Source of the DNA: a virus
IMG/VR virus record: IMGVR_UViG_3300030419_006277
Coordinates: 47,294-87,026 of that record
Length of the DNA stretch: 39,733 nucleotides
Reading direction: 5' to 3' (one strand)
Made by a program: the position numbers and the translations under genes. Below are positions 1,396-36,085 of the stretch, in pieces. Numbering within the stretch: position 1 is the stretch's first letter; each line of letters starts with the position of its first letter. A model generated the notes under the pieces. It was not told the DNA's origin and searched no databases. It saw nothing but the letters and a program-made list of their open reading frames with translations.

Positions 1396-1486
1396 AGGTA
1401 TTAAGGATATCCCTTATTACGCTGTTGATCAGCGTGGGGAGCCTCTAAAAGAGCCAGATTCTTGTCCTTCTATTGATCGCTGTTAG
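1319..1486 (+). CDS. small hypothetical protein, 55 aa
   Basis: ATG-started frame encoding 55 residues (MTPSPGSHLQRYIRERLPAL...), hydrophilic and proline-containing, with no lipobox or membrane segment. It is out of frame with the preceding GTG frame and overlaps it by 77 bases. A short perfect hairpin (ATCGCT-GTT-AGCGAT, 1476-1490) sits across its stop codon. Family not recognised. It has ordinary amino-acid use and is at least as credible as the frame it overlaps. Confidence 0.45.
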   Translation: MTPSPGSHLQRYIRERLPALVPGVFEGIKDIPYYAVDQRGEPLKEPDSCPSIDRC

Positions 1487-1518
1487 CGATTTATTGATCT
1501 TCTGTGTATCGCTGGTAA

Positions 1519-1526
1519 TATAAATA
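1519..1526 (+). promoter_or_regulatory. TATAAATA late-promoter-like box upstream of nblA
   Basis: The octamer TATAAATA, the consensus of T4-type late promoters, lies 18 bases before the nblA start codon. This would give a transcript with a leader of only about 10 bases. AT-rich DNA produces such octamers by chance, and no sigma-gp55 homologue is visible in the window. Confidence 0.3.
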
Positions 1527-1543: not shown

Positions 1544-1759
1544 ATGGATGCAATAGAGCTTCCAGTTGATGTTGAATTTTCAATTCACGCAGCTTCTTTG
1601 GCGATTCAAAACCTTGATAGGACTGAGTTGGAAGAGGCTTTCATCGAAATCCTCCATCAAAAAGCCTTGGATCGTCAAATGTTTTATGGCGTCCTAAAAG
1701 ACCACGGCATAGACGCCGACATTAAATTCAACCTCTCCACTGTTGGGCAGATTTCTTAA
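1544..1759 (+). CDS. nblA: NblA-like phycobilisome degradation adaptor
   Basis: A 71-residue protein with the NblA pattern: ELPVDVEFSIHAASLAI, then a Leu/Arg turn (NLDRTELEEAFIEIL), then a second amphipathic helix HQKALDRQMFYGVLKD. Cyanobacterial NblA (about 55-65 residues) is a helix-hairpin dimer that binds phycobiliprotein and hands the phycobilisome to the Clp protease. The start, the conserved E-F and the I-L-H-Q stretch match my knowledge of the family. The phage copy would dismantle the host light-harvesting antenna during infection and release amino acids. It sits directly before a virion-like gene and the lysozyme gene, so it may be expressed late. A TATAAATA box precedes it. Confidence 0.78.
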   Translation: MDAIELPVDVEFSIHAASLAIQNLDRTELEEAFIEILHQKALDRQMFYGVLKDHGIDADIKFNLSTVGQIS

Positions 1760-14068: not shown

Positions 14069-14713
14069 ATGAAGGACGGGTTAACTTATGCCTTATTCCC
14101 TACTCCATTACATCACAACAATATTGGGTATGACTATGAGCTTAAACTTTCTGATTTATGCCCTTGTTATGATTCTACTATTGGGCCAGAATCCCATGAC
14201 AAGTGTAATGGTTTAATTACGAGAGATCAAAATTATCTACTTAAACAGGAGAATCTTCTTTTAAGGCAAAAATTAGAAGAAGTTATAGAGAAATATTTAC
14301 ATGAGCATTTAAAATTAAATTCTAAAATAGGTATAAGACATCAATGTAGCTGGGGGTTACTTCATAAAAGAGGTCACTATTCTCCAAAACATTACCATCG
14401 CAATTCTTGGCTATCTGGTATTTATTATTTTCAGGTGAATTCTGATAGTGGCGATTTCGAAGTTACGGCAAGACCACCTTATGGATGGACTTGTAATTCG
14501 ATAGCTCCTTTTGACGCTATCGATACGTATAATTCGTTAAATAGTCGAAGTACTACATTTAAACCAAAAAGAGGGGATGTATATTTGTTCCCTTCTCATT
14601 TAGAGCATCATAGTTATATAAACAATAGTGACATTGATCGCGTATGTGTGAGTTTCAACTATACTTTAACTGGTTCTTGGGGATCTATGGGTGATCGAAT
14701 CACTCTAAATTAA
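14069..14713 (+). CDS. 2OG-Fe(II) oxygenase-like protein, first of three
   Basis: A 214-residue protein with the pattern of the 2OG-FeII_Oxy_5 family: 'KHYHRNSWLSGIYYF' (HxH before the SG.YY strand), an aromatic/glycine core, 'KRGDVYLFPSHLEHHSY' carrying the distal His, and 'DRVCVSFNYT' with the Arg used for 2-oxoglutarate. It probably hydroxylates a side chain; the substrate is not evident. Its stop overlaps the start of the next oxygenase by one base. Position after the fibre genes suggests a fibre or host surface target, as inference. Confidence 0.75.
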   Translation: MKDGLTYALFPTPLHHNNIGYDYELKLSDLCPCYDSTIGPESHDKCNGLITRDQNYLLKQENLLLRQKLEEVIEKYLHEHLKLNSKIGIRHQCSWGLLHKRGHYSPKHYHRNSWLSGIYYFQVNSDSGDFEVTARPPYGWTCNSIAPFDAIDTYNSLNSRSTTFKPKRGDVYLFPSHLEHHSYINNSDIDRVCVSFNYTLTGSWGSMGDRITLN

Positions 14714-15342
14714 TGGAACTTTTACCTTTATTTGCCTCTAATGTATTCAAAGTATGTATAGAAGAGGATACCGATTCTCTTCTTAATGAAGAGTCTTTTA
14801 GTAATTCTGTTGAACAAGATAGACAGGAAGGTCTTTACAGTGTTGGGTGCTTAGACAAAGCAAATCAAAATATAAGAGTTTTAGACCGCCATCCTGAAGT
14901 AGCACGGGTATTGCTAGATAAATGGATGATTATTGCAAGAGAGGTTCTTAATTATAATTGTAAATTTGTTCTTACTACGTCTTGGATAACTAAAAATTAT
15001 AAAGGTATGAGTTCTCAGGAACATCATCATAAGAATAGTTTTTATTCTGGGATTTACTATTTTGATGATTATGATGAAAATGTAGGAAAGCTTATATTCA
15101 GCAGTCCTTTAGCAACCTTTCCAGATTTTTTAATAGAACCAACTGAATACCATATAAAGAACTGCCCGGCTTGGATACATATTCCAAAAGCAAAAGAACT
15201 GGTGCTTTTTCCTAGTTATCTGAATCATCAAGTACTACCTCATGGTAGTGATAAGCCAAGGAGATCTTTAGCTTTTAATATCGTTCCTACAGGAATTTAT
15301 GGGATAGGTGATTCTAAGTTGGATACTAAATGGCTCTCATGA
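14713..15342 (+). CDS. 2OG-Fe(II) oxygenase-like protein, second of three
   Basis: A 209-residue paralogue of the preceding gene. It has 'SSQEHHHKNSFYSGIYYFDD', 'ELVLFPSYLNHQVLPHG' and 'RRSLAFNIVPTG' in the same order and spacing. The N-terminal ~90 residues are helical and acidic. The HHH...SGIYY and FPS..NH motifs supply the putative iron ligands. Sequence between the two proteins is clearly divergent, so this is an old duplication or separate acquisition. Its stop overlaps the next start as ATGA. Confidence 0.75.
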   Translation: MELLPLFASNVFKVCIEEDTDSLLNEESFSNSVEQDRQEGLYSVGCLDKANQNIRVLDRHPEVARVLLDKWMIIAREVLNYNCKFVLTTSWITKNYKGMSSQEHHHKNSFYSGIYYFDDYDENVGKLIFSSPLATFPDFLIEPTEYHIKNCPAWIHIPKAKELVLFPSYLNHQVLPHGSDKPRRSLAFNIVPTGIYGIGDSKLDTKWLS

Positions 15343-15912: not shown

Positions 15913-16104
15913 TTAGAAGATTCCTGGGATAATTTGGCCAGTTGTTACATATGCTCCTAAAGCTGCAATAAAACCGATCATTGCCCAACGACCGTTAGCT
16001 TTTTCAGCGGCTTCGACGTATGAAGCTTCGCCTTCCATTACCGCAACTTGTGGCTCACGTGCGAAAACGTTTTGTCTTCCACCAGATTCGTTAGTAACAG
16101 TCAT
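15913..16104 (-). CDS. hli: high-light-inducible protein (Hli)
   Basis: A 63-residue protein with one chlorophyll-binding helix. The C-terminal half 'EKANGRWAMIGFIAALGAYV' carries the ExxNGRxAMxGF signature, followed by TTGQIIPGIF, the usual Hli ending. The N-terminal half is polar. It lies in the thylakoid membrane and helps protect or repair photosystem II during light stress. Cyanophages commonly carry such genes together with psbA. Here it lies far from psbA on the other strand, has its own terminator at 15841-15868, and an AT-rich leader with two ATAAATAC boxes. Confidence 0.95.
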   Translation of the reverse strand: MTVTNESGGRQNVFAREPQVAVMEGEASYVEAAEKANGRWAMIGFIAALGAYVTTGQIIPGIF

Positions 16105-16534: not shown

Positions 16535-16900
16535 TCAGAATGAATATTTAGCTCCGAGTTTGGTTCCCCAAGCATTGTCAGTGTCACCTTCAGCTGTAAG
16601 AACTGAGATTTCACCATAGATACCTAGATTTTCATTAAGTTCAACATTTCCACCAACTTTTCCAGATAGTTGAGTATCATTGTCAGTTCCGTCGACCGCC
16701 ACTATTGCAGGGCCTCCTTGGATGAAATAAGAAGCATTTTCTGAAATGTCACCTTCCCAACCTACATGAAGGTCGGTTGTGGCGTTTGTATAGTCTGAGC
16801 CGGTGTACGAAGAATTGATTTCTGTGTTGATGTACGGTCCAGCGAAAGCAGCAGGTGCAGCTAAAGAAGCAGCGGCTGCAATGAGGATAGGTTTAATCAT
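16535..16900 (-). CDS. small outer-membrane beta-barrel-like protein with signal peptide
   Basis: A 121-residue protein. MIKPILIAAAASLAAPAAFA is a Sec signal peptide with an AxA cleavage site near residue 20. The mature part consists of alternating-hydrophobicity strands (HVGWEGDISENASYFIQGGP; KVGGNVELNENLGIYGEISV) and ends in LGAKYSF, with a terminal Phe typical of outer-membrane barrels. The length suits a small barrel or half of one. Similar proteins occur in other cyanophages as far as I recall. It would place a phage-made protein in the host outer membrane, possibly for superinfection exclusion or permeability; both ideas are inference. Confidence 0.75.
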   Translation of the reverse strand: MIKPILIAAAASLAAPAAFAGPYINTEINSSYTGSDYTNATTDLHVGWEGDISENASYFIQGGPAIVAVDGTDNDTQLSGKVGGNVELNENLGIYGEISVLTAEGDTDNAWGTKLGAKYSF

Positions 16901-16977: not shown

Positions 16978-19557
16978 CTATGACACTTTATGTTCTGGCA
17001 GTATAGTTGGAGCAGATTCATGTTTTTGATCAGAGCTTCTTACTGCTAATCCTTTTATAAATGGGCGCCCTTGTTTACTAAAGTGTCGTATTTCTTTTAG
17101 CCCTAATTGGTTCTTACAGCAGTCGAGAAGTAAAGATATAAATCTTTTTTGACCAACTGGTTTTGATCCTGTGTCTTCACAGTAAGAGCAATAACTTGCA
17201 TAGAGATGATAATTGCTATTGCAATATCTTTCTTTAGCATCTTTTGCTGCTGGGATTTTTTTACCAACTGATGAAACTATTTCTGGCTGGTGTATAACTT
17301 CAGACTGGAGCCATTCAACTAAGTTGTTACTAGTTAATAGAATGTCGTTGCGAACTTTTTTAAGTGAGTGTACTTTTTCATAGGTATCTAGTAGATATTC
17401 GCGCATATCTTCTGTTTTCATCGCTAAAACCCAGTTAACTAACCCAGGTAGATAATTCTTCCATAACCCTTTTACGATTCCACTTTCTATTTTTATCATC
17501 TCTTTCGCTTCCGAATTTTTATCCCATAGTGGGCGATTAAACTCGACAGTTAAGCGTCGTCTAGTAAGACCAGAAGTGTTATCTGTTGTTTGGATCGGTT
17601 CATTGGCGCAGACCATAACCATGCCTGTATAAACAAATGGTTCTCCTACATTTTTATTTTTTTCTTCAAATCGAAGATTGTCTCCCCCTGTTAGTGCTTT
17701 AAATATCTGAGCTGATCCGCCATATCTTTCTGAGTCATTGATTAGTGTTAATCGTTTTCCTTTAATAGAAGCGACTTCAAATCTACTTTGCTCTAGTTGG
17801 TTAAGGGTGCTACTTGCATAGTTTCCGGGTCCTACAAGAGAACAGCAGAGATTGGCGAAGGTTGATTTACCTCTTCCACCAGGTCCAATTACTTCCAAGA
17901 AACGTTGCAGTTCATGCCCTTGTCCTATTAGACAAGCTTTTAGCCATGCTCTAAGTACCTGAACTCTTTCTACGTCATTGTATTGAGTTCGATTTAACCA
18001 GTTAATGATAGGCCCTGGATCGGCATTAGGGTCATAGTCAAAATCTAGCCCCCAGGTTAGATAGTGTTCTGGGTTGTGTTCTAAGAATTCACCTGTACTG
18101 ATTTCGAGAACTCCGTTACGGAAAGCTAGGCGATCGTCATCATCGTCCCAATAGGTATGAGTTATATACGCTTGGGTGAGATTAACTACATCAGTAAGTA
18201 GATGGGAGGTATAGCCACCTGGGGTTGGGATTCTTTCATGTGTGAATAGATCTTGTACAAAGTGTTTGTACTCGTTTTTATAGTCTTCTCGTCTCCAAGT
18301 TCCTTTGGTTCTTTGATAGAACATGAATGTGTCGTATTTGGGATCATATCTCCAACCACATTCAATGACCATTCCGGTTACGAATTCAGCTAGTTCAGAT
18401 GCTGGAGGGGTTTTAGGACGTCCTTTACTTCGAACTTTTTCGTTTACTCCCTCTTCTATTTCTTTCTCAGGTTTCCCAATAATCTTTTTAAGGGCACTGT
18501 GGATTGTCTGGTCTCTCATAATGTCTTCTCCGTTAAACATTGCTTTTGCTCTTTTTGCGAGCACTTCTGGATCTGATTCGACTACGAATCCCCCAAAGTC
18601 AACGAATCCGTCTTCTTTGGCTTTTGCTCGCAGGGTGTGTACACCTGCAGCACCTTCTGGAGCAGGCCCACCTGGTATACGTTCAAATGTTGACCATTTC
18701 TGTTCACAGGCACCTTCTTCGAAGTTGTCTGCTTGTGACGACCAATCGACCCATTCTTTTAGTAGGCAATCATCAACTTGATGAAGTGCCATACCAATAG
18801 TGAGCCATTCGTCATAGTCAATTGCTCTTTCTTGGTTTAAATGATCTAGATAGATTTTTGTTTCATTAATTATTTCTTCTTTTCGATATTCAGATTCGTC
18901 TTCGTAATTCAGATTTATTTGTTGAGTTAGGACTCCACTTGTTGCTGGTTTTCTATATTTATGAGTTGGGAAGGCTCTTGCTATTGCTTGATATAGCCAT
19001 TCAGGTAGTTCGGGAGGATTTTTTGCGAATTCGTAGCCGCCATGGGAGGTAGTGTAATAACCAGCAGTATCGGGATGGCTACCCATAAGGGCTCCCTGTC
19101 TTGAACGAAATAAGATTTCGAAAGATGGGATACCTATTTTTATTGTGGCTTTATCAGGTATTAGAGCCAACTTTGCAGTTGGTACTCTGTACAGCATTCT
19201 TTGCCGACCTGGTTTTCCAGATGAGATTGTTAGTGTTCTTGGAAAGATGGAGGAGAGTGGTCCACCAGCGAGTTCTTCTAGTGCTGGTACAGCATCTGGG
19301 CCATCGATATCTACCCAAACCAAACCACCTTCGTTTGACCACTGACCACTAATTAATCCGACTCCTGAGGCTCTTCCTTCTTCCAATTCTCTTTTAATTT
19401 GTTCAAGAGAATAAGGATGAGAGTTCCAACCTGCTACATAGGCTCTCTTATCCCTGAGGGGCGTTAATGCCCAATCAGGGGGTATGAGATTGAGATTGAT
19501 TTCTCCGGGCTCTAGCTTGCTGTTAGGCTCTTTAGGAGATGGCGTAGCAGTTGGCAC
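16978..19557 (-). CDS. primase-helicase (PrimPol-like N terminus, D5/SF3 helicase C terminus)
   Basis: An 859-residue replication protein. The N-terminal ~200 residues look like a prim-pol domain: WNSHPYSLEQIKRE, GLVWVDIDG with the DxD pair at 83-85, and GKPGRQRMLYRVP. A linker with a PriCT-like segment (DYDEWLTIGMALHQVDD, near 240-260) follows. The helicase has the D5 N-region (DDRLAFRNGVLEISTGEF), Walker A GPGGRGKST near residue 557-565, Walker B-like 'KRLTLINDSE', and 'TGLTRRRLTVEF' near 665 as sensor/arginine region. It should lay primers and unwind DNA at the fork with PolA and SSB. It is the last gene of the replication block; a 108-base gap separates it from the exonuclease gene. Confidence 0.88.
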   Translation of the reverse strand: MPTATPSPKEPNSKLEPGEINLNLIPPDWALTPLRDKRAYVAGWNSHPYSLEQIKRELEEGRASGVGLISGQWSNEGGLVWVDIDGPDAVPALEELAGGPLSSIFPRTLTISSGKPGRQRMLYRVPTAKLALIPDKATIKIGIPSFEILFRSRQGALMGSHPDTAGYYTTSHGGYEFAKNPPELPEWLYQAIARAFPTHKYRKPATSGVLTQQINLNYEDESEYRKEEIINETKIYLDHLNQERAIDYDEWLTIGMALHQVDDCLLKEWVDWSSQADNFEEGACEQKWSTFERIPGGPAPEGAAGVHTLRAKAKEDGFVDFGGFVVESDPEVLAKRAKAMFNGEDIMRDQTIHSALKKIIGKPEKEIEEGVNEKVRSKGRPKTPPASELAEFVTGMVIECGWRYDPKYDTFMFYQRTKGTWRREDYKNEYKHFVQDLFTHERIPTPGGYTSHLLTDVVNLTQAYITHTYWDDDDDRLAFRNGVLEISTGEFLEHNPEHYLTWGLDFDYDPNADPGPIINWLNRTQYNDVERVQVLRAWLKACLIGQGHELQRFLEVIGPGGRGKSTFANLCCSLVGPGNYASSTLNQLEQSRFEVASIKGKRLTLINDSERYGGSAQIFKALTGGDNLRFEEKNKNVGEPFVYTGMVMVCANEPIQTTDNTSGLTRRRLTVEFNRPLWDKNSEAKEMIKIESGIVKGLWKNYLPGLVNWVLAMKTEDMREYLLDTYEKVHSLKKVRNDILLTSNNLVEWLQSEVIHQPEIVSSVGKKIPAAKDAKERYCNSNYHLYASYCSYCEDTGSKPVGQKRFISLLLDCCKNQLGLKEIRHFSKQGRPFIKGLAVRSSDQKHESAPTILPEHKVS

Positions 19558-22464: not shown

Positions 22465-22605
22465 CTATTTACCTTGACCTCGATAGGGTTTTTTCCCTTG
22501 AACGCTGAAAGATCCTCGTTTCCTTCTGCCGTTTCCAATAGATGTTTTTTTAGGAACAGACTCTTTTTGTAATTTTGTTTCTCCCCAAGCCGCTTTTTTG
22601 GGCAT
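22465..22605 (-). CDS. small very basic conserved phage protein, 46 aa
   Basis: MPKKAAWGETKLQKESVPKK is followed by TSIGNGRRKRGSFSVQGKKP and ends YRGQGK. The SIGxGxxxR...KxYRGQGK pattern occurs in many short phage proteins of unknown role. The start is ATG at 22605, 2 bases before the Gp157-like gene. High Lys/Arg content implies nucleic-acid binding. Confidence 0.72.
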   Translation of the reverse strand: MPKKAAWGETKLQKESVPKKTSIGNGRRKRGSFSVQGKKPYRGQGK

Positions 22606-22692
22606 TCTTTATAAGAAGTTGTAGCTCAATTTTATGCCGGGTACGGTTAATGTCAATAATATTGGTTAAAATGGAATATATGCCTTGTTTTT
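22606..22692. promoter_or_regulatory. divergent intergenic promoter region
   Basis: 87 bases between a minus-strand early operon start and the plus-strand NblA-like gene. It is AT-rich with TTAAAAT at about 22664-22670 facing the plus gene. Promoters for both directions must lie here or upstream; no clear -35/-10 pair was identified. Confidence 0.35.
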
Positions 22693-22941
22693 ATGGCAGC
22701 ATTTAAGGTTACAGAAGTATCTTTTGAGCCGATTGATTTTTCTCCAACCTTGGAGGATGAGTTCACTATGACAGCGGTTTCGAAAGAAATTGAGTCAGTA
22801 GATGATATTGATCAATTGAAGTTAGGTGCTTTGAATTTATTGAAAGTTGCAGTGCATCGTCAAGCGGTTATTCGTGGATTGTGTAAGCGCCTCGCCAAGA
22901 TCGAGACATATGGAGTTACTACAACTAAACATCAAGATTGA
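22693..22941 (+). CDS. NblA-like helical-hairpin protein, second copy
   Basis: An 82-residue protein. DEFTMTAVSKEIESVDD and QLKLGALNLLKVAVHRQAVIRGLCKR align with the gene at 1544: EF[ST][IM], a conserved Ala two residues on, S at the same place, then xxI, with one gap before the second helix L-x(8)-LL. NblA-type proteins are two-helix hairpins, and this would be a second, divergent member in the early region. Cyanobacterial relatives of this exact type are unclear to me; it may instead be an unrelated small helical protein. It stands alone on the plus strand and is coupled to a tiny gene by a TTGA overlap. Confidence 0.5.
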   Translation: MAAFKVTEVSFEPIDFSPTLEDEFTMTAVSKEIESVDDIDQLKLGALNLLKVAVHRQAVIRGLCKRLAKIETYGVTTTKHQD

Positions 22942-23075
22942 ATCCAATTAAACAACATAAAAAGTTATTAAAATTGGCGACTAAGGCTCAACAGTGTACG
23001 TCTCGAGAGAAAGCACAAAAGTTGATTACTAAAGCTGATAAAGCTCAAGCAAAGCTTTCGACTTCCTCTTCGTAA
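22938..23075 (+). CDS. tiny lysine-rich protein, 45 aa, TTG start
   Basis: The TTG start at 22938 overlaps the TGA stop of the NblA-like gene. The product (MNPIKQHKKLLKLATKAQQC..., initiator read as Met) is a Lys/Ala-rich amphipathic helix, followed by SREKAQKLITKADKAQAKLS. The regular heptad-like pattern supports coding. It ends 31 bases inside the convergent minus-strand gene. It may be a nucleic-acid-binding or antenna-related helper of its upstream partner. Confidence 0.5.
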   Translation: MNPIKQHKKLLKLATKAQQCTSREKAQKLITKADKAQAKLSTSSS

Positions 23076-25580: not shown

Positions 25581-28313
25581 ATGGTTTTAACTTTACCTGA
25601 TGCTCGAAAAGAAGGTGAAAGCGAAGAGGATTTTGCTACACGTTTACAGGAATTTGATCCTGCAGAGAAATTTTTAAATGAGTATACGCAACAGTCTACT
25701 GATCCTAGAGAGACAGATTTTAGTGTAGATGCTTATGCAGGGGATACGGGAAGAGGAGGATTTTTTAGTCCCGATGGTCAAGGGAGACCTAGTGATTCAC
25801 AATCCGTACATTGGACGAATCAAGGTTGGACTGAATCTGATCAAGTTGCTGCAGAGTATGGCGGAGCAAAAGGTAAATTAAAAAGAGAAGTTGAAGCTTT
25901 TGGAAAACAGTTTCCTATTCGAACTACGGATACTCCTGTTGACCGTCCTCAAGGGAGAGGTATGGGAGATAGATGGGAAGGACCTCTAAGTAGTGGTTGG
26001 AGACCTAGAACAGTTGAAGTTGGGAGAATTGCTTCTCGAGATGGACGTAACATTCTTGCTAGAGATCGTCCGGCTGTTAGGCCAACTGGTCAGAGTGATG
26101 TTGGTTCTTCAAGGGAGGACTTTACCCCAAGGGGCAGGAGTTTTATAGGTGGTTATTCACGTGGACAACGTACTGGATCTGGCGCTGCATCAGCGGCTTC
26201 TCCTTTTGCGAGTTCTGGTAGTGCGAATCCGAATACAGTTTCAGTTTTTCTGCAAAAACAGTTAACTAATTTACAAGGGTCTCCTAGCGATGCTGGTCAA
26301 CGGAATCCCAATTGGTGGGGCCAGGGAAGAAGCCCTGGTGAAAATACTAGACCTTGGGGCAATGTTAGACAGTCTTTTGGTATTAATGTAGACGAAAGTA
26401 CTTTACTTGGAGAGGACTATAGAAAGCAGCAGGTCTCTGATACTCAGTTTGCCAAAGGAAAGACTCCAAGTGGGCCACTTAAAGGATATAGAGCAACTCC
26501 TGGGTTTGGAACAGTTAAGACAGCCGCTGCGAATGTGAAGGATGTTCTTACAGGTAATCGGACAGTTGCAGATGTTTATAAAAATCCAAAAACTCTTGAG
26601 CAAGTCAATCCAGGTGGGTTTCAGAGTGGTCCAACACCAGCTGTTCGACAGTTTGTCGAAAGGGGGGCTGCTTTTGTACCCAAACTTAATGCTTATGCAA
26701 ATACAGCGGCTTTGTTGTATAAAGGTATGGATTCTGTAACTAGAGCTAGGACTGGTCAGTCATTAGCTGAAAGAATTTCAAATCCTGTTGCAACTCTTGA
26801 ACGGAATGCGGAGCAGTTTAAACAACAGGCAGATGTAAATAGAGCTAAAAGAGATGAACTGGTTGGAGGAGTAAGAGATTGGTTTGTAGATAAGATGGGT
26901 AATGTTAAAAAAGACGTACAGACTAGGAACTTAAGGCAAGCTGGTCTTGGTACTGATATACAAGGGAATATTGTTACTGAGAGCCAAAGAACAAAGGCAG
27001 CTGATGAGTTTATAGCTGGTATAGAGAATTGGGAACCTTTAACAGATCAAAGGACTTTTGAGAAGATCCCTGAAGTTCGCGGGGGGATAGTTGACGGTCA
27101 GCGGGATGAAGATTATCTAGTCGCTCCTGAAGCGGTAACTGAAACTACTACTCCAGCAGGTAGTGCATTTAATAAGGAGAATCTCCCCGGCTGGTTCCAA
27201 CATTCGTATACAGATGATGATGGAACTTTCATGGGATACAACTATTCAGGTGGATTTGGAGCATTAACACCAGGTCCTGGTAGTGGTGAGGATGGGACCC
27301 CCGAATCTGGATATGGTACTCCTGGTTATAACTGGGATACTAAAAGTGGTGGTACTTCTTGGACATTTACTGATTATGATACGTACTCATCTGCAAATAA
27401 ATCTCCTGTAGTATCTGACGTTGGAACGGTTAATGAGCTTGGTGAAGTAGTACCAAATCTAGGTGTTAAGGATGGGGATGACGTTTCTTTCATAGGTATG
27501 TTTGGTCTACAGGAAAAGGAGCAAGAAGGTCCACATAAATTTAGAACAAATCAAGGGACAAAAGATGCTCAGATGATTCAAATGGGATATGGTTCGGAGA
27601 CTCCAGAACAGTTTAAACAACGAACCGGTCATAGTATTTATGAGTATTTAAATTTACCTACAGAGAGTCAGTATGAATCTCAAGGAGATCAATCTTCTAC
27701 TGTCTCAGGTCAAGAAATAGCACAGGTTGCATCTGCTGATGACTTATCTGGTGTATTAGGTGCAACTAATCAACCTGCAACTGTTGATTTAAATAAGTCA
27801 ACTGAGCTTCCTCCACCTCCGACGCCAGATGACTTTTTAGAGGAATATATACCTCCTTCTCAACCTTATGATCAACAAGAACCAGTTGGTGATTATATAA
27901 AGAATGAAGAGACTGGGGAGGTTACACAGCTTTATGATGCACCTACTCCAGAAACTTTACCTTCAGATGTTGTAGATTTTTCATATAATCCAGATCGGTT
28001 AAGTCAAGTAGAACAGCAAGAAACGGCATTTAAGCTCGGGACTGCTGCTCCTAGTGGTCCAAGTAGTGATCCTGCTGTTATTGCATCTGATAGAGCTGTA
28101 AGTGCTGCTTATGCTGCTTGGAAGGCTGCTTCTAATGCACAACAGAATTATTTAGGAGGACGTACTGCTGGTACTGAAGAAGAGTATAACCAATACATGA
28201 AACTTGCCGCTGCTGAGTCCGCAGCTTCTAAGAGATTGGATGCTGCTTATAATCAACAAGCTAGAGCAATGGCTGCTTATACAGCTAGAAATACAGCGTA
28301 TGCCAGTACTTAA
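25581..28313 (+). CDS. large virion-like disordered protein, 910 aa
   Basis: A low-complexity, Gly/Ser/Gln/Pro-rich protein. The N terminus is polar; residues ~290-400 contain Gly/Ala segments and ~500-650 a Gly/Thr/Tyr-rich stretch. The last 80 residues are an Ala-rich amphipathic helix (VSAAYAAWKAASNAQQNYLG; LAAAESAASKRLDAAYNQQA). There is no catalytic motif. Its style matches the other plus-strand late proteins, and an internal or ejected virion role is likely by analogy. It is embedded, with one partner gene, in an early minus-strand block between ssb and polA, and its stop overlaps a minus-strand membrane-protein gene by 4 bases. Confidence 0.65.
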   Translation: MVLTLPDARKEGESEEDFATRLQEFDPAEKFLNEYTQQSTDPRETDFSVDAYAGDTGRGGFFSPDGQGRPSDSQSVHWTNQGWTESDQVAAEYGGAKGKLKREVEAFGKQFPIRTTDTPVDRPQGRGMGDRWEGPLSSGWRPRTVEVGRIASRDGRNILARDRPAVRPTGQSDVGSSREDFTPRGRSFIGGYSRGQRTGSGAASAASPFASSGSANPNTVSVFLQKQLTNLQGSPSDAGQRNPNWWGQGRSPGENTRPWGNVRQSFGINVDESTLLGEDYRKQQVSDTQFAKGKTPSGPLKGYRATPGFGTVKTAAANVKDVLTGNRTVADVYKNPKTLEQVNPGGFQSGPTPAVRQFVERGAAFVPKLNAYANTAALLYKGMDSVTRARTGQSLAERISNPVATLERNAEQFKQQADVNRAKRDELVGGVRDWFVDKMGNVKKDVQTRNLRQAGLGTDIQGNIVTESQRTKAADEFIAGIENWEPLTDQRTFEKIPEVRGGIVDGQRDEDYLVAPEAVTETTTPAGSAFNKENLPGWFQHSYTDDDGTFMGYNYSGGFGALTPGPGSGEDGTPESGYGTPGYNWDTKSGGTSWTFTDYDTYSSANKSPVVSDVGTVNELGEVVPNLGVKDGDDVSFIGMFGLQEKEQEGPHKFRTNQGTKDAQMIQMGYGSETPEQFKQRTGHSIYEYLNLPTESQYESQGDQSSTVSGQEIAQVASADDLSGVLGATNQPATVDLNKSTELPPPPTPDDFLEEYIPPSQPYDQQEPVGDYIKNEETGEVTQLYDAPTPETLPSDVVDFSYNPDRLSQVEQQETAFKLGTAAPSGPSSDPAVIASDRAVSAAYAAWKAASNAQQNYLGGRTAGTEEEYNQYMKLAAAESAASKRLDAAYNQQARAMAAYTARNTAYAST

Positions 28314-28843: not shown

Positions 28844-28967
28844 ATTCAGATAGTTCTCTATAACCTGTGCCGACATAAATTTGTCCGGCGACCACTGAAA
28901 GTGCCATAATTGACCAGAAGACATAGTACCAACTGGCTTTAACTTGGTGCTGTTTCTTTTTTTTCAT
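28770..28967 (-). CDS. small membrane protein, 65 aa
   Basis: MKKKKQHQVKASWYYVFWSI then MALSVVAGQIYVGTGY is a basic N terminus plus one transmembrane helix; the rest is a charged coiled coil rich in Glu/Arg. The start codon overlaps the polA stop by one base (TAATG), which supports it as the downstream gene of the polA transcript. Confidence 0.65.
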   Translation of the reverse strand: MKKKKQHQVKASWYYVFWSIMALSVVAGQIYVGTGYRELSESNHQLREGLFLLERERLLEFQRRQ

Positions 28968-30796
28968 TAGTGAGTCTCCATCCAGTTCTTTCCTTCTTTA
29001 GCTTCTCCGGTTAAGGGACACTTTAAGTTGTAAAATTCACCGGCTTTTCGAAATGAATCGATAGCTAAACTTTTGTAAAGATCTTCAAATTGAGGTTTTA
29101 CAAGAGCTTGAATTTCATCATGAATGTGTGCTACGAAGGCAAAGTGACAAGCCCATCTTAGCCCATTCTCGTACAAATCCTTGTATAGGATGCATGTAGC
29201 TTTCTTAACTGCAATAGCACCTGTTGATTGGAGAAGTTGATTTAATGCGGAGTGTCTAGAACGTATCTGTAGATGTCTACCATCGATACCCGTTAGATAG
29301 CCACGACTTACTACTCGTTCATCAACTTTGTCTTTTAATTGTTTAATAGCAGGAAGATTTTTGTAAAAAGTATTAATAGTTTCGTAGCCTAATTCTTTTT
29401 GTTTATGTTCGTTTAGAGAGACGTCGAGGATAGAACCTAGTTTCTGGGCGCCCGCCCCATAAAGTACGGCATAGATCATAGTTTTTGCAAGCTCTCTCGT
29501 CTTTTTATTTATCTTTCCTTGGCCATCAAATATTCCAAATAATTTTGCATTATGAGTATGAATATCAAAGTCATCAGTGCTAACTAATTTTGAATATTCT
29601 CCTCCATCAAAGTAAGCTAATTGTGCACCTAGTGCCCGTAGTTCTAAACCACTGGCGTCAGCTCCTATTAATAGCCAACCATTATCTGCATAGAAAAGAG
29701 CGCGACATTCAGCTCCATATTTATGACCAACTCTAGGAATTTGTGCCATATTTGGACCTCGATGTGAGCATCGTCCACTGACACAGGCATTGGTTATGAC
29801 TGAACCGTGTATTCTTCCATCTTTATATTTTTGACTATGTTTTAACCAAGCTTCTTTTCCATCTACTATTTGACCTAATCTTTTATTAAGTAGTTGATAT
29901 TCTTCTAAAAGAGCAGCCTCTGGATACTTTTTACCCAGGATTTTAAGGACGTCGTCATCGACCTTAACGTTCCCTTTTTCCGTCTTGGAGAATCTAATCT
30001 CAGGGTAACGCTCCTGTAACCGACTGGCAGTTTGTTTACGCGAAGCGGGGTTAAACGTAGTGACTTTATCTTTAAGTGGTTTGCCAGTTTTGGCTGATAT
30101 TCTTTTTTCCGTAATAGGCGGGAAGACTTTTTGGAGTTCGTCATCAATTTCTGTACGCCTCGTTTTAAGAGTGTTGACAAGTGCATAAGCTTCTTTTTCA
30201 TTGAAAGGAAAACCGAAGCTTTCCTGTAGTGTCATGATAATCGCGAACTGGTGCTCTAGTTCATTGCAGCGTGGGTCTAGTTCTTGTGCTTGGAAGTACT
30301 TATAGAGTTCTAATGAAACTAGGGTGTCATTTTCACAGTATTTCTGCATCTCTTCTGACCATTCATCCCATTTACTCTCACCTTCTTCTGAGAGACTGGT
30401 CTTATTTACATTTAAACGGTCTCCCCAAGCTCCTAATGAGTGTCGACCTTTATATTTTGGGTTGATGTGAGAGAATTTTTGTTCATCGACTGGTTCTAAC
30501 TCTGGCCATAACACCCGGCTAAGAATGAGTGTGTCATAGAGTATGCACTTTTTTTTCTTTCTAAAATCTGGATAGACTTTTCTTATTGCGCGAAAGTCGA
30601 AGTTGATAATATTGTGGCCGATGATTAGATCTGCTTTGCTTAGGACGTAGAGTCCATTACAGATGGGTTCATACCCTTCTTTGTCTGCACAACTGATAGT
30701 CTCCCCCGTATCAACATCACGTAGGACAAGGCAGTGGACTTTATCTAATTCATGGACTAGACCATTGGTCTCACAGTCCAGCACGTAGCGGAGCAT
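28967..30796 (-). CDS. polA: family-A DNA polymerase
   Basis: A 609-residue replicative polymerase of T7/cyanophage type. The exonuclease domain shows ExoI VLDCETNG (D7, E9), ExoII 'IIGHNIINFDFRAI' and ExoIII 'YCENDTLVSLELYK'. The polymerase domain has motif A GADASGLELR near 379-388, motif B RELAKTMIYAVLYG near 432-445, and motif C HIHDE near 556-560. The residue equivalent to E. coli Phe762 is Tyr (K-T-M-I-Y), as in T7 polymerase. There is no 5'-3' nuclease domain. It is the anchor of the early block with primase-helicase and SSB. Confidence 0.95.
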   Translation of the reverse strand: MLRYVLDCETNGLVHELDKVHCLVLRDVDTGETISCADKEGYEPICNGLYVLSKADLIIGHNIINFDFRAIRKVYPDFRKKKKCILYDTLILSRVLWPELEPVDEQKFSHINPKYKGRHSLGAWGDRLNVNKTSLSEEGESKWDEWSEEMQKYCENDTLVSLELYKYFQAQELDPRCNELEHQFAIIMTLQESFGFPFNEKEAYALVNTLKTRRTEIDDELQKVFPPITEKRISAKTGKPLKDKVTTFNPASRKQTASRLQERYPEIRFSKTEKGNVKVDDDVLKILGKKYPEAALLEEYQLLNKRLGQIVDGKEAWLKHSQKYKDGRIHGSVITNACVSGRCSHRGPNMAQIPRVGHKYGAECRALFYADNGWLLIGADASGLELRALGAQLAYFDGGEYSKLVSTDDFDIHTHNAKLFGIFDGQGKINKKTRELAKTMIYAVLYGAGAQKLGSILDVSLNEHKQKELGYETINTFYKNLPAIKQLKDKVDERVVSRGYLTGIDGRHLQIRSRHSALNQLLQSTGAIAVKKATCILYKDLYENGLRWACHFAFVAHIHDEIQALVKPQFEDLYKSLAIDSFRKAGEFYNLKCPLTGEAKEGKNWMETH

Positions 30797-32870: not shown

Positions 32871-33962
32871 ATGGGCACAGCCATCCAACGGAGGGACGTA
32901 GAAGTCTCTCCAGTACCGGGTTGGCCGCAGTTCTGTGACTGGGTAACATCAACTGACAACCGCCTCTATGTGGGGTGGTTTGGCGTGTTAATGATTCCTT
33001 GTCTTTTGACGGCGACAACCTGTTTTATTATTGCTTTTATTGCTGCTCCACCCGTTGACATAGATGGGATCCGTGAACCAGTAGCAGGATCTATTCTCTA
33101 TGGAAACAACATCATCTCAGGAGCAATTGTACCGAGCTCGAACGCAATCGGAATGCATTTTTACCCAATATGGGAAGCTGCAACGATTGATGAGTGGCTC
33201 TACAACGGAGGACCCTATCAGCTTATCGTCTTCCACTTCCTCATTGGTATCTCTGCTTACATGGGACGCCAATGGGAACTTAGCTATCGACTAGGGATGC
33301 GTCCCTGGATTTGTGTTGCTTATTCCGCACCAGTATCAGCCGCGTTTGCGGTATTCCTTATTTATCCGTTCGGACAAGGAAGTCTCTCTGACGGTATGCC
33401 GTTGGGGATCTCAGGGACGTTCAACTTTATGTTTGTCTTTCAGGCGGAACATAATATCCTCATGCATCCTTTCCATATGTTGGGAGTTGCGGGGATGTTT
33501 GGAGGTTCTCTCTTCTCTGCTATGCATGGTTCCTTGGTTACATCTTCCCTTATCAGGGAGACAACTGAAAATGAATCGCAAAACTACGGATATAAATTTG
33601 GACAAGAGGAAGAAACTTATAACATCGTTGCAGCCCACGGCTACTTTGGACGTTTAATCTTCCAGTACGCCAGTTTCAACAACAGCCGGTCTCTTCACTT
33701 CTTCCTTGCAGTCTTCCCTGTGGTTTGTATTTGGTTCACTTCCATGGGTATTTGCACAATGGCGTTTAACTTGAATGGTTTTAATTTTAACCAGTCAATT
33801 ATTGACGCTCAGGGCAAAGTTGTTCCGACCTGGGGGGATGTCCTGAACAGGGCTAACCTTGGAATGGAAGTTATGCATGAGCGTAATGCTCACAACTTCC
33901 CGCTAGACTTGGCTGCTGCTGAATCGACTCCTGTTGCTTTAATTGCTCCGGCAATTGGTTGA
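32871..33962 (+). CDS. psbA: photosystem II D1 protein
   Basis: A 363-residue D1 with all five transmembrane helices. Functional residues are present: YPFG (Tyr Z region), SDGMPLG with the Mn-binding Asp, VFQAEHN with E189/H190, HGYFGR and [11 protein letters not shown] near the QB/iron His, and C-terminal [15 protein letters not shown] with the Mn ligands, followed by a cleavable tail. The segment [10 protein letters not shown] has Gln at the position of the D1:1/D1:2 difference. The N terminus ([20 protein letters not shown]) is about four residues longer than usual. Phage D1 replaces light-damaged host D1 in the thylakoid. It forms its own unit: promoter near 32798, terminator at 34032. 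Confidence 0.98.
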
Positions 33963-35465: not shown

Positions 35466-35663
35466 ATGGCAGACAAGTGGATTAAAGATGCAATCAAGCG
35501 ACCTGGAGCCTTCACTAAGAAGGCCGAGAGTCGCGGTATGGATGCTCAGGAATTCGCTGCCAAAGTAAGAAAGAATCCAGATGAATATGACACTCGTACT
35601 CGTCGTCAAGCGAACTTAGCTGTGACTCTTAGCAAGATGCATAAGAGTAAGAAGAAGGATTAG
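35466..35663 (+). CDS. conserved small basic phage protein, 65 aa
   Basis: MADKWIKDAIKRPGAFTKKA begins with the WIkdAIkkPGal pattern found in small phage proteins, followed by a helical Lys/Arg-rich tail (RRQANLAVTLSKMHKSKKKD). It is probably a DNA-binding or head-associated protein. Its stop overlaps the convergent hsp20 gene by 4 bases. Confidence 0.7.
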   Translation: MADKWIKDAIKRPGAFTKKAESRGMDAQEFAAKVRKNPDEYDTRTRRQANLAVTLSKMHKSKKKD

Positions 35664-36085
35664 TCATCAAGCTTAACTGTTACTTCTGTGTGAGTATGAG
35701 CTTTGCCAGCTATGACTTCTAGTACTCCATCTTTATAAGAAGCTTTTACATCGTCTCTGTTTAATCCGTTTTGGAAGTGAAGAGTCCGACTCCAGGTTCC
35801 ATAGCGAAATTCACTGAGAAGATTATCTTTTGTATTTTTAGGTTCGGAGCGTTCAGCTGAGATACTGAGGGTCCGATCTGTTGCTTTGACTTGGATTGAG
35901 TCTTTGTCGACTCCTGGTAGCTCTAGTTTGATAATGTAACTATCTTTTTCTTCGAATATTTCTCCTGCTGGAGTTCTGACTGAGTTGTAGAGTTGTTGTT
36001 CGAGTTTGTCGAATAGATCAAGAGATGCTGGGTAGCGGTTTTGCAGTGGGAAGGTCAACATGTTTTTTAGTCCTCCAAATTCCAT
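35660..36085 (-). CDS. small heat-shock protein (Hsp20/alpha-crystallin)
   Basis: A 141-residue protein. The crystallin domain spans about 45-135: YIIKLELPGVDKDSIQVKAT, RTLSISAERSEP, 'FRYGTWSRTLHF', and the signature YKDGVLEVIAGK. The C-terminal VTVKL resembles an IxI anchor. Hsp20 proteins hold unfolding proteins; in cyanophages they are common and may aid capsid or fibre assembly. The upstream region carries the AT-rich motif shared with late genes. Confidence 0.93.
   Translation of the reverse strand: MEFGGLKNMLTFPLQNRYPASLDLFDKLEQQLYNSVRTPAGEIFEEKDSYIIKLELPGVDKDSIQVKATDRTLSISAERSEPKNTKDNLLSEFRYGTWSRTLHFQNGLNRDDVKASYKDGVLEVIAGKAHTHTEVTVKLDD

Follow-up and report, generated by a model that had tools for sequence, protein, structure and literature searches.

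A strongly diverged NblA-like protein from the lysozyme unit of an S-EIV1-like cyanophage and its possible NblA-like partner

The NblA protein of cyanobacteria is small, folds as a helix-loop-helix and dimerizes. It binds phycobilisomes via its C-terminus as well as ClpC and in this way hands the antenna over to Clp proteolysis (PMC7966870, PMC7760959). An essential NblA1/NblA2 heterodimer of Synechocystis is named in the title of a paper by Baier (2014; cited in PMC7966870). NblA is also known from phages, including freshwater phages, cyanopodoviruses, S-TIM5, S-SCSM1 and an uncultured marine lineage, and for some of the marine phage proteins only remote homology reveals the relationship (PMC9602691). 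Expression of NblA proteins from phage lineages other than the one described here led to antenna degradation or phycobilin loss in laboratory cyanobacteria (PMC9602691, PMC5780444). Because phage NblA is already established (PaV-LD, Ma-LMM01 and marine podoviruses; Nadel 2019, 2025), the basic claim that a phage carries such a protein is not new. Work by Nadel in 2025 (Nature 648:434) is said to show that viral NblA alters the photosynthesis of oceanic cyanobacteria.

An ocean survey in which photosynthesis genes were screened lists the S-EIV1 group with only hli and ptoX (PMC5332604), and no report of NblA in this group was found in the literature searched. Here we describe two small proteins of an S-EIV1-like virus, referred to as F1 and F3. 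We consider it likely that F1 is a phage-encoded and strongly diverged proteolysis adaptor of the NblA type, which has its own promoter, functions as a dimer, brings ClpC/ClpP to the antenna and is one of two such proteins, the other being F3. The divergent F1 and F3 subfamilies and their pairing appear to be unreported in the literature searched.

The source phage and the F1 locus

The window, which is the whole stretch of 39,733 nucleotides that was analysed, comprises the final 39.7 kb of a virus record with a length of 87,026 bases (IMG/VR record IMGVR_UViG_3300030419_006277). The virus has an isolated relative in S-EIV1, whose host is a Synechococcus and with which it shares about 60-66% identity in the terminase and up to 70% in other structural genes. 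Judged by these likenesses and by those of the DNA polymerase and primase, i.e., by core genes shared with S-EIV1, the source virus is an S-EIV1-like cyanophage of the wider group. No integrase match was found in the whole 87-kb record. The following genes were among those identified in the window:

14713-15342, plus strand: 2OG-Fe(II) oxygenase
15913-16104, minus strand: Hli, high-light-inducible protein (phrog_178, E=2.3e-27)
16535-16900, minus strand: cyanophage outer-membrane-protein-like beta barrel (PF24653, 1e-46)
16978-19557, minus strand: primase-polymerase/D5 helicase, with an S-EIV1 homologue (34% identity in the primase)
28967-30796, minus strand: DNA polymerase A, a single ORF (PF00476; 40% identical to its S-EIV1 counterpart over 620 aa)
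32871-33962, plus strand: psbA (D1; phrog_182, E=8e-197)
35660-36085, minus strand: HSP20 small heat-shock protein (PF00011, 4e-17)

The closest psbA genes are found in phages of both Prochlorococcus and Synechococcus, and the most identical one comes from a phage whose host is given as Prochlorococcus. Prochlorococcus is not known to have true phycobilisomes, and in a host of that kind F1 would act on residual phycoerythrin or other pigment proteins, in which case its relation to NblA would be real and its role at the antenna minor. We regard this as very unlikely, given that the isolated relative S-EIV1 infects a Synechococcus, and favor an F1 that acts on the antenna as an NblA-type adaptor. 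F1 and its surroundings are organized as follows:

1475-1491, plus strand: weak terminator-like hairpin, directly 5' of the F1 promoter
1494-1521, plus strand: putative sigma-70-type promoter of F1, with TTGATC, a 16-nt spacer and an extended -10 element TG-G-TAATAT (1513-1521)
1544-1759, plus strand: F1, NblA-like protein of 71 aa
1765-2151, plus strand: conserved 128-aa protein of unknown function between F1 and lysozyme, starting 5 nt past the F1 stop codon
2141-2890, plus strand: phage lysozyme, the last gene of the conserved trio (PF00959, E=3.4e-16)

Translation of F1 yields MDAIELPVDVEFSIHAASLAIQNLDRTELEEAFIEILHQKALDRQMFYGVLKDHGIDADIKFNLSTVGQIS*, 71 aa, in agreement with the 71-residue ORF and the sequence fragments given in the initial annotation. 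Relatives of F1 are encoded in at least 141 viral stretches of IMG/VR (226 with the alignment as query), and 38 columns are invariant across 29 variants of the family. Among 65 distinct nucleotide sequences, the median pS is 0.74 versus a median pN of 0.12, and the median dN/dS over the 403 unsaturated pairs is 0.11; synonymous sites are close to saturation, whereas the protein sequence is conserved. F1 is under purifying selection, and these results confirm that it is a genuine gene and no chance ORF. The order of F1, the ORF of the type found at 1765 and lysozyme is kept at 12 of 13 loci, the thirteenth being cut by the end of its contig. The protein encoded at 1765-2151 has no notable match in Pfam or PHROG. 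F1 has a 2OG-Fe(II) oxygenase gene as its neighbor in most of the loci checked; in the window, this gene lies at 367-1170 on the minus strand. One match in a genome collection is an NblA-like gene on contig QQUU01000116.1, which is binned in a Bacteroidetes MAG; a cellular origin was rejected, as this contig is most likely a mis-binned phage contig and was therefore left out of account.

The F1 start codon is preceded in 70 distinct upstream sequences by TTCAGCGCTGKTARKATA and, 16-17 nt further upstream, by a TTG hexamer, with the consensus TTG(N3)-16/17-TG(K)TARKAT for the whole block. A matrix built from the 70 sequences scores 18.0 at 1494-1521, compared with -2.6 for the next best site of the window and a maximum of 6.8 in shuffled windows. 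A generic consensus promoter scan did not include the F1 promoter among its listed sites. The block upstream of F1 is probably a promoter. The possibility that it is a phage-wide signal was rejected, since the window has one strong site and the rest of the record is at background. The scan that returned the hairpin at 1475-1491 found seven terminator-like sites, where 4.2 were expected, so the hairpin is suggestive at most.

Relationship of F1 to NblA

Searches of the PDB with F1 lead to NblA. Among 177,635 PDB sequences, phmmer with F1 alone placed NblA in the top two positions (3cs5, E=0.0018; 1ojh, 0.07), and a broad F1 profile in which more divergent members were included placed the same two structures first and second with E values of 7e-6 and 0.0059, respectively. 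Two other small ORFs of the window gave no NblA match in the same PDB search. The NCBIfam model for NblA, NF045916, is the best of 18,950 models for F1 (E=6.6e-5, 23 bits) and matches all 21 F1 family members tested, with a best value of 5.7e-6. The alignment of F1 with the NblA alignment by hhalign reached 96.6% with a score of 50.3, while 100 column-permuted decoys scored 20.6 at most (0/100 as good) and the reversed control 13.9. A divergent relative of F1 (L293) links the two families further, with 0.009 (16.9 bits) for PF04485 and 7.6e-4 for 3cs5 in the PDB. In tblastn searches of annotated phages, neither F1 nor a cyanobacterial NblA as query returned a useful match, and therefore remote homology methods are needed for F1.

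F1 and NblA share about 20% identity in an alignment that is nearly ungapped over about 48-55 residues. In the hhalign alignment, K53 of Anabaena NblA corresponds to the invariant K52 of F1, and L51 to an aliphatic residue at position 50 (V/I/M). These two Anabaena residues are reported to be important phycobiliprotein-contact positions (Bienert 2006). Both are represented in F1, with L51 replaced by other aliphatic residues. F1 also has the small size of NblA (71 aa, compared with about 60 aa), and its homology to NblA has the statistical support described above. The AlphaFold model of F1 is of low confidence (pLDDT 63.5) and contains a short helix (8-22) and a long helix (26-53). Foldseek searches of the PDB with the models of F1 and F3 returned no significant match, and no NblA structure was among the matches of F1; we give these results little weight, as Foldseek performs poorly on helical hairpins of this shortness and on models of low confidence.

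Several results set F1 apart from the curated families. The PF04485 search that the initial annotation had proposed as a check gave no match to F1 even at E<=10 (the gathering score is 25 bits), and the 23 bits obtained with NF045916 are far under the curated cut-off of 100 bits for this equivalog. Thus, of the statement that the protein fits the NblA pattern closely, the likeness to NblA is borne out by the PDB, NCBIfam and hhalign results and by L293, whereas the closeness is overstated in view of PF04485, the NF045916 cut-off and the low confidence of the model, which has no Foldseek match. Based on the sequence comparisons, F1 is with high probability a distant homolog of NblA. As it fails the cut-offs of both PF04485 and NF045916, we do not file it as a member of either and suggest that it is best called NblA-like.

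A chance likeness is an alternative to homology. F1 would then be an unrelated small helical protein of the virion or of lysis, as might be suspected from the unit that it shares with lysozyme, from its lack of a confident structure and from its lack of a Pfam match. We find this very unlikely, since NblA comes first in both the PDB and the NCBIfam searches, the decoys fail and NblA is reached from three separate families of small proteins in this group of phages, including the two described below. Homology between F1 and NblA is accordingly the reading that we follow.

F3 and other NblA-like genes of the phage group

A PF04485 search of the relatives returned a gene equivalent to 22693-22941 of the window. 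This second gene, F3, had gone unremarked in the initial annotation. Its surroundings are as follows:

22583-22692, plus strand: conserved block TGTCAATAA...GTTAGACT upstream of F3, present in most F3 loci
22693-22941, plus strand: F3, second NblA-like protein, 82 aa, inside replication genes of the minus strand
22938-23075, plus strand: lysine-rich ORF of 45 aa that starts with TTG and shares 4 nt with the end of F3

A profile of the F3 family (11 relatives) has NblA as its top two PDB matches (2q8v, 5.1e-4; 2qdo, 0.0039). PF04485 matches seven of the 11 members weakly, with a best value of 0.0041 and all below the cut-off, while support from NCBIfam is nearly absent (one of 11 members, E=0.1). 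The hhalign comparison of F3 with NblA reached 82%, and none of 100 decoys was as good. The window copy of F3 alone has no NblA match, PF04485 included, so that the statistical support for homology of F3 to NblA comes via the family profile and not from this copy by itself. F3 is modeled with helices at 20-35 and 39-72 (pLDDT 74.5), and the positions aligned with L51 and K53 of NblA are L63 and K/R65. No direct similarity between F1 and F3 was detected by hhalign. Of 15 F3 loci, 10 have a similar lysine-rich ORF behind F3, at a distance of -4 to +4 nt, and the conserved block upstream is possibly the promoter of F3.

The two genes occur together. F3 is found in 20 of the 21 F1-bearing contigs longer than 40 kb, and the sole F1 contig without it ends about 12 kb past F1, where the usual spacing between F1 and F3 is roughly 20 kb. 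In comparison, psbA is found in just six of these 21 contigs; all absences among them are soft, because the contigs may be fragments. On these counts, psbA was rejected as a conserved partner of F1, and the combination of D1, Hli and NblA, by which the initial annotation explained a joint remodeling of light use, does not hold as a lineage trait. What characterizes the lineage is the pair of NblA-like genes rather than D1. We tentatively suggest, as a possibility that we would not yet rely on, that S-EIV1-like cyanophages have a core pair of dissimilar NblA-like proteins, which is more constant than psbA, one member being expressed from the unit with lysozyme and its counterpart from among the replication genes, and that the two dismantle the antenna jointly, either as a heterodimer like NblA1/NblA2 of Synechocystis or by each acting on a different part of the antenna.

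S-EIV1 itself encodes proteins of this kind. AHV82245.1 (73902-74222), referred to as F2, is annotated as hypothetical and lies directly after lysozyme. F2 is matched weakly by PF04485 (0.014), the top PDB match of its family profile is NblA (1ojh, 0.0019) and the F1 family profile finds it with E=1e-4. Like F1, F2 is NblA-like, belongs to the same phage group and is located beside lysozyme; unlike F1, it follows rather than precedes lysozyme, has an acidic tail and has no lysine where NblA has K53. A second S-EIV1 gene, at 27768-27986, is F3-like (34% identity) and is likewise annotated as hypothetical. With F2 and this F3-like gene in S-EIV1, NblA-like proteins look like a general feature of the S-EIV1 group.

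The start of one contig, G007 (L263 1-148), repeats about 2.7 kb before its end (L264 9239-9386; 148 bp, 98.6%). The two copies diverge, one continuing into S-EIV1 synteny and the other into the F1 cassette, and represent either strain variants or an assembly chimera. Because the copies continue differently, G007 is no more than a candidate for a phage that carries F1 and F2 together.

Proposed function and comparison with known systems

We propose that F1 has a promoter of its own and is transcribed together with the genes for the conserved protein of unknown function and lysozyme. During infection, F1 would form an NblA-like dimer of helical hairpins in which the end of the long helix may bind phycobiliproteins, and by binding ClpC it may recruit the ClpC/ClpP protease of the host to the antenna, whose predicted breakdown would release amino acids and lower light capture. 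F1 would be one of the two NblA-like proteins of the lineage, with F3 as the other, and the two may heterodimerize. That F1 is expressed late is a guess, suggested by the unit shared with lysozyme.

Counting against F1 as an NblA is its conserved C-terminal tail, DHGIDADIxFNxST, which is absent from NblA. The tail, the histidines conserved specifically in F1, the high divergence from NblA, the scores under the curated cut-offs and the fact that a single phage has two dissimilar NblA-like proteins could all mean that the NblA fold has been put to a new use. In that case, F1 (or F3) would either serve as an adaptor for another protein of the host or act as a decoy, binding ClpC or the host's NblA and thereby protecting the antenna. 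We think this unlikely, because the positions aligned with L51 and K53 are kept in F1 (V/I/M50 and K52) as well as in F3 (L63 and K/R65), and because expressed phage NblA proteins promoted antenna loss in laboratory cyanobacteria (PMC9602691). An antenna-degrading adaptor remains our preferred reading of F1. Should F1 and F3 function as NblA, then antennae are dismantled by one more widespread lineage of phages, which uses two proteins to do so and provides a compact system for asking why cells would need two different NblA partners. For surveys, searches with the Pfam model miss proteins of the F1 type and see those of the F3 type only under the cut-off.

Two NblA proteins per cell are likewise found in Synechocystis (NblA1/NblA2); unlike that pair, F1 and F3 show no similarity to each other by hhalign, and their binding is conjectural. 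Like cyanobacterial NblA (PF04485/NF045916; 3cs5, 1ojh, 2q8v and 2qdo), F1 is small, has a short and then a long helix in its model, and has a conserved F12, an aliphatic residue at 50 and K52 that align with F13, L51 and K53 of NblA, respectively. It differs from the cyanobacterial proteins in an identity of about 20%, scores under both cut-offs, the tail DHGIDADIxFN and its location in a phage lysis unit. The NblA proteins of freshwater cyanophages (PaV-LD ORF022L and Ma-LMM01) are, as F1, phage-borne NblA homologs, and score 45 and 52 bits, respectively, with PF04485, which is above its cut-off, whereas F1 does not reach it. The lineage of Nadel 2019 is said to have an integrase and a split DNA polymerase; the 87-kb record is without an integrase match and its polymerase is unsplit. 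While NblA of S-RIP2 belongs to phrog_27006, F1 is in no known PHROG. The NblA proteins of marine cyanophages (cyanopodoviruses, e.g., S-RIP2; S-TIM5; S-SCSM1) are also diverged and are carried by phages of picocyanobacteria; these phages represent lineages different from that of the F1 phage.
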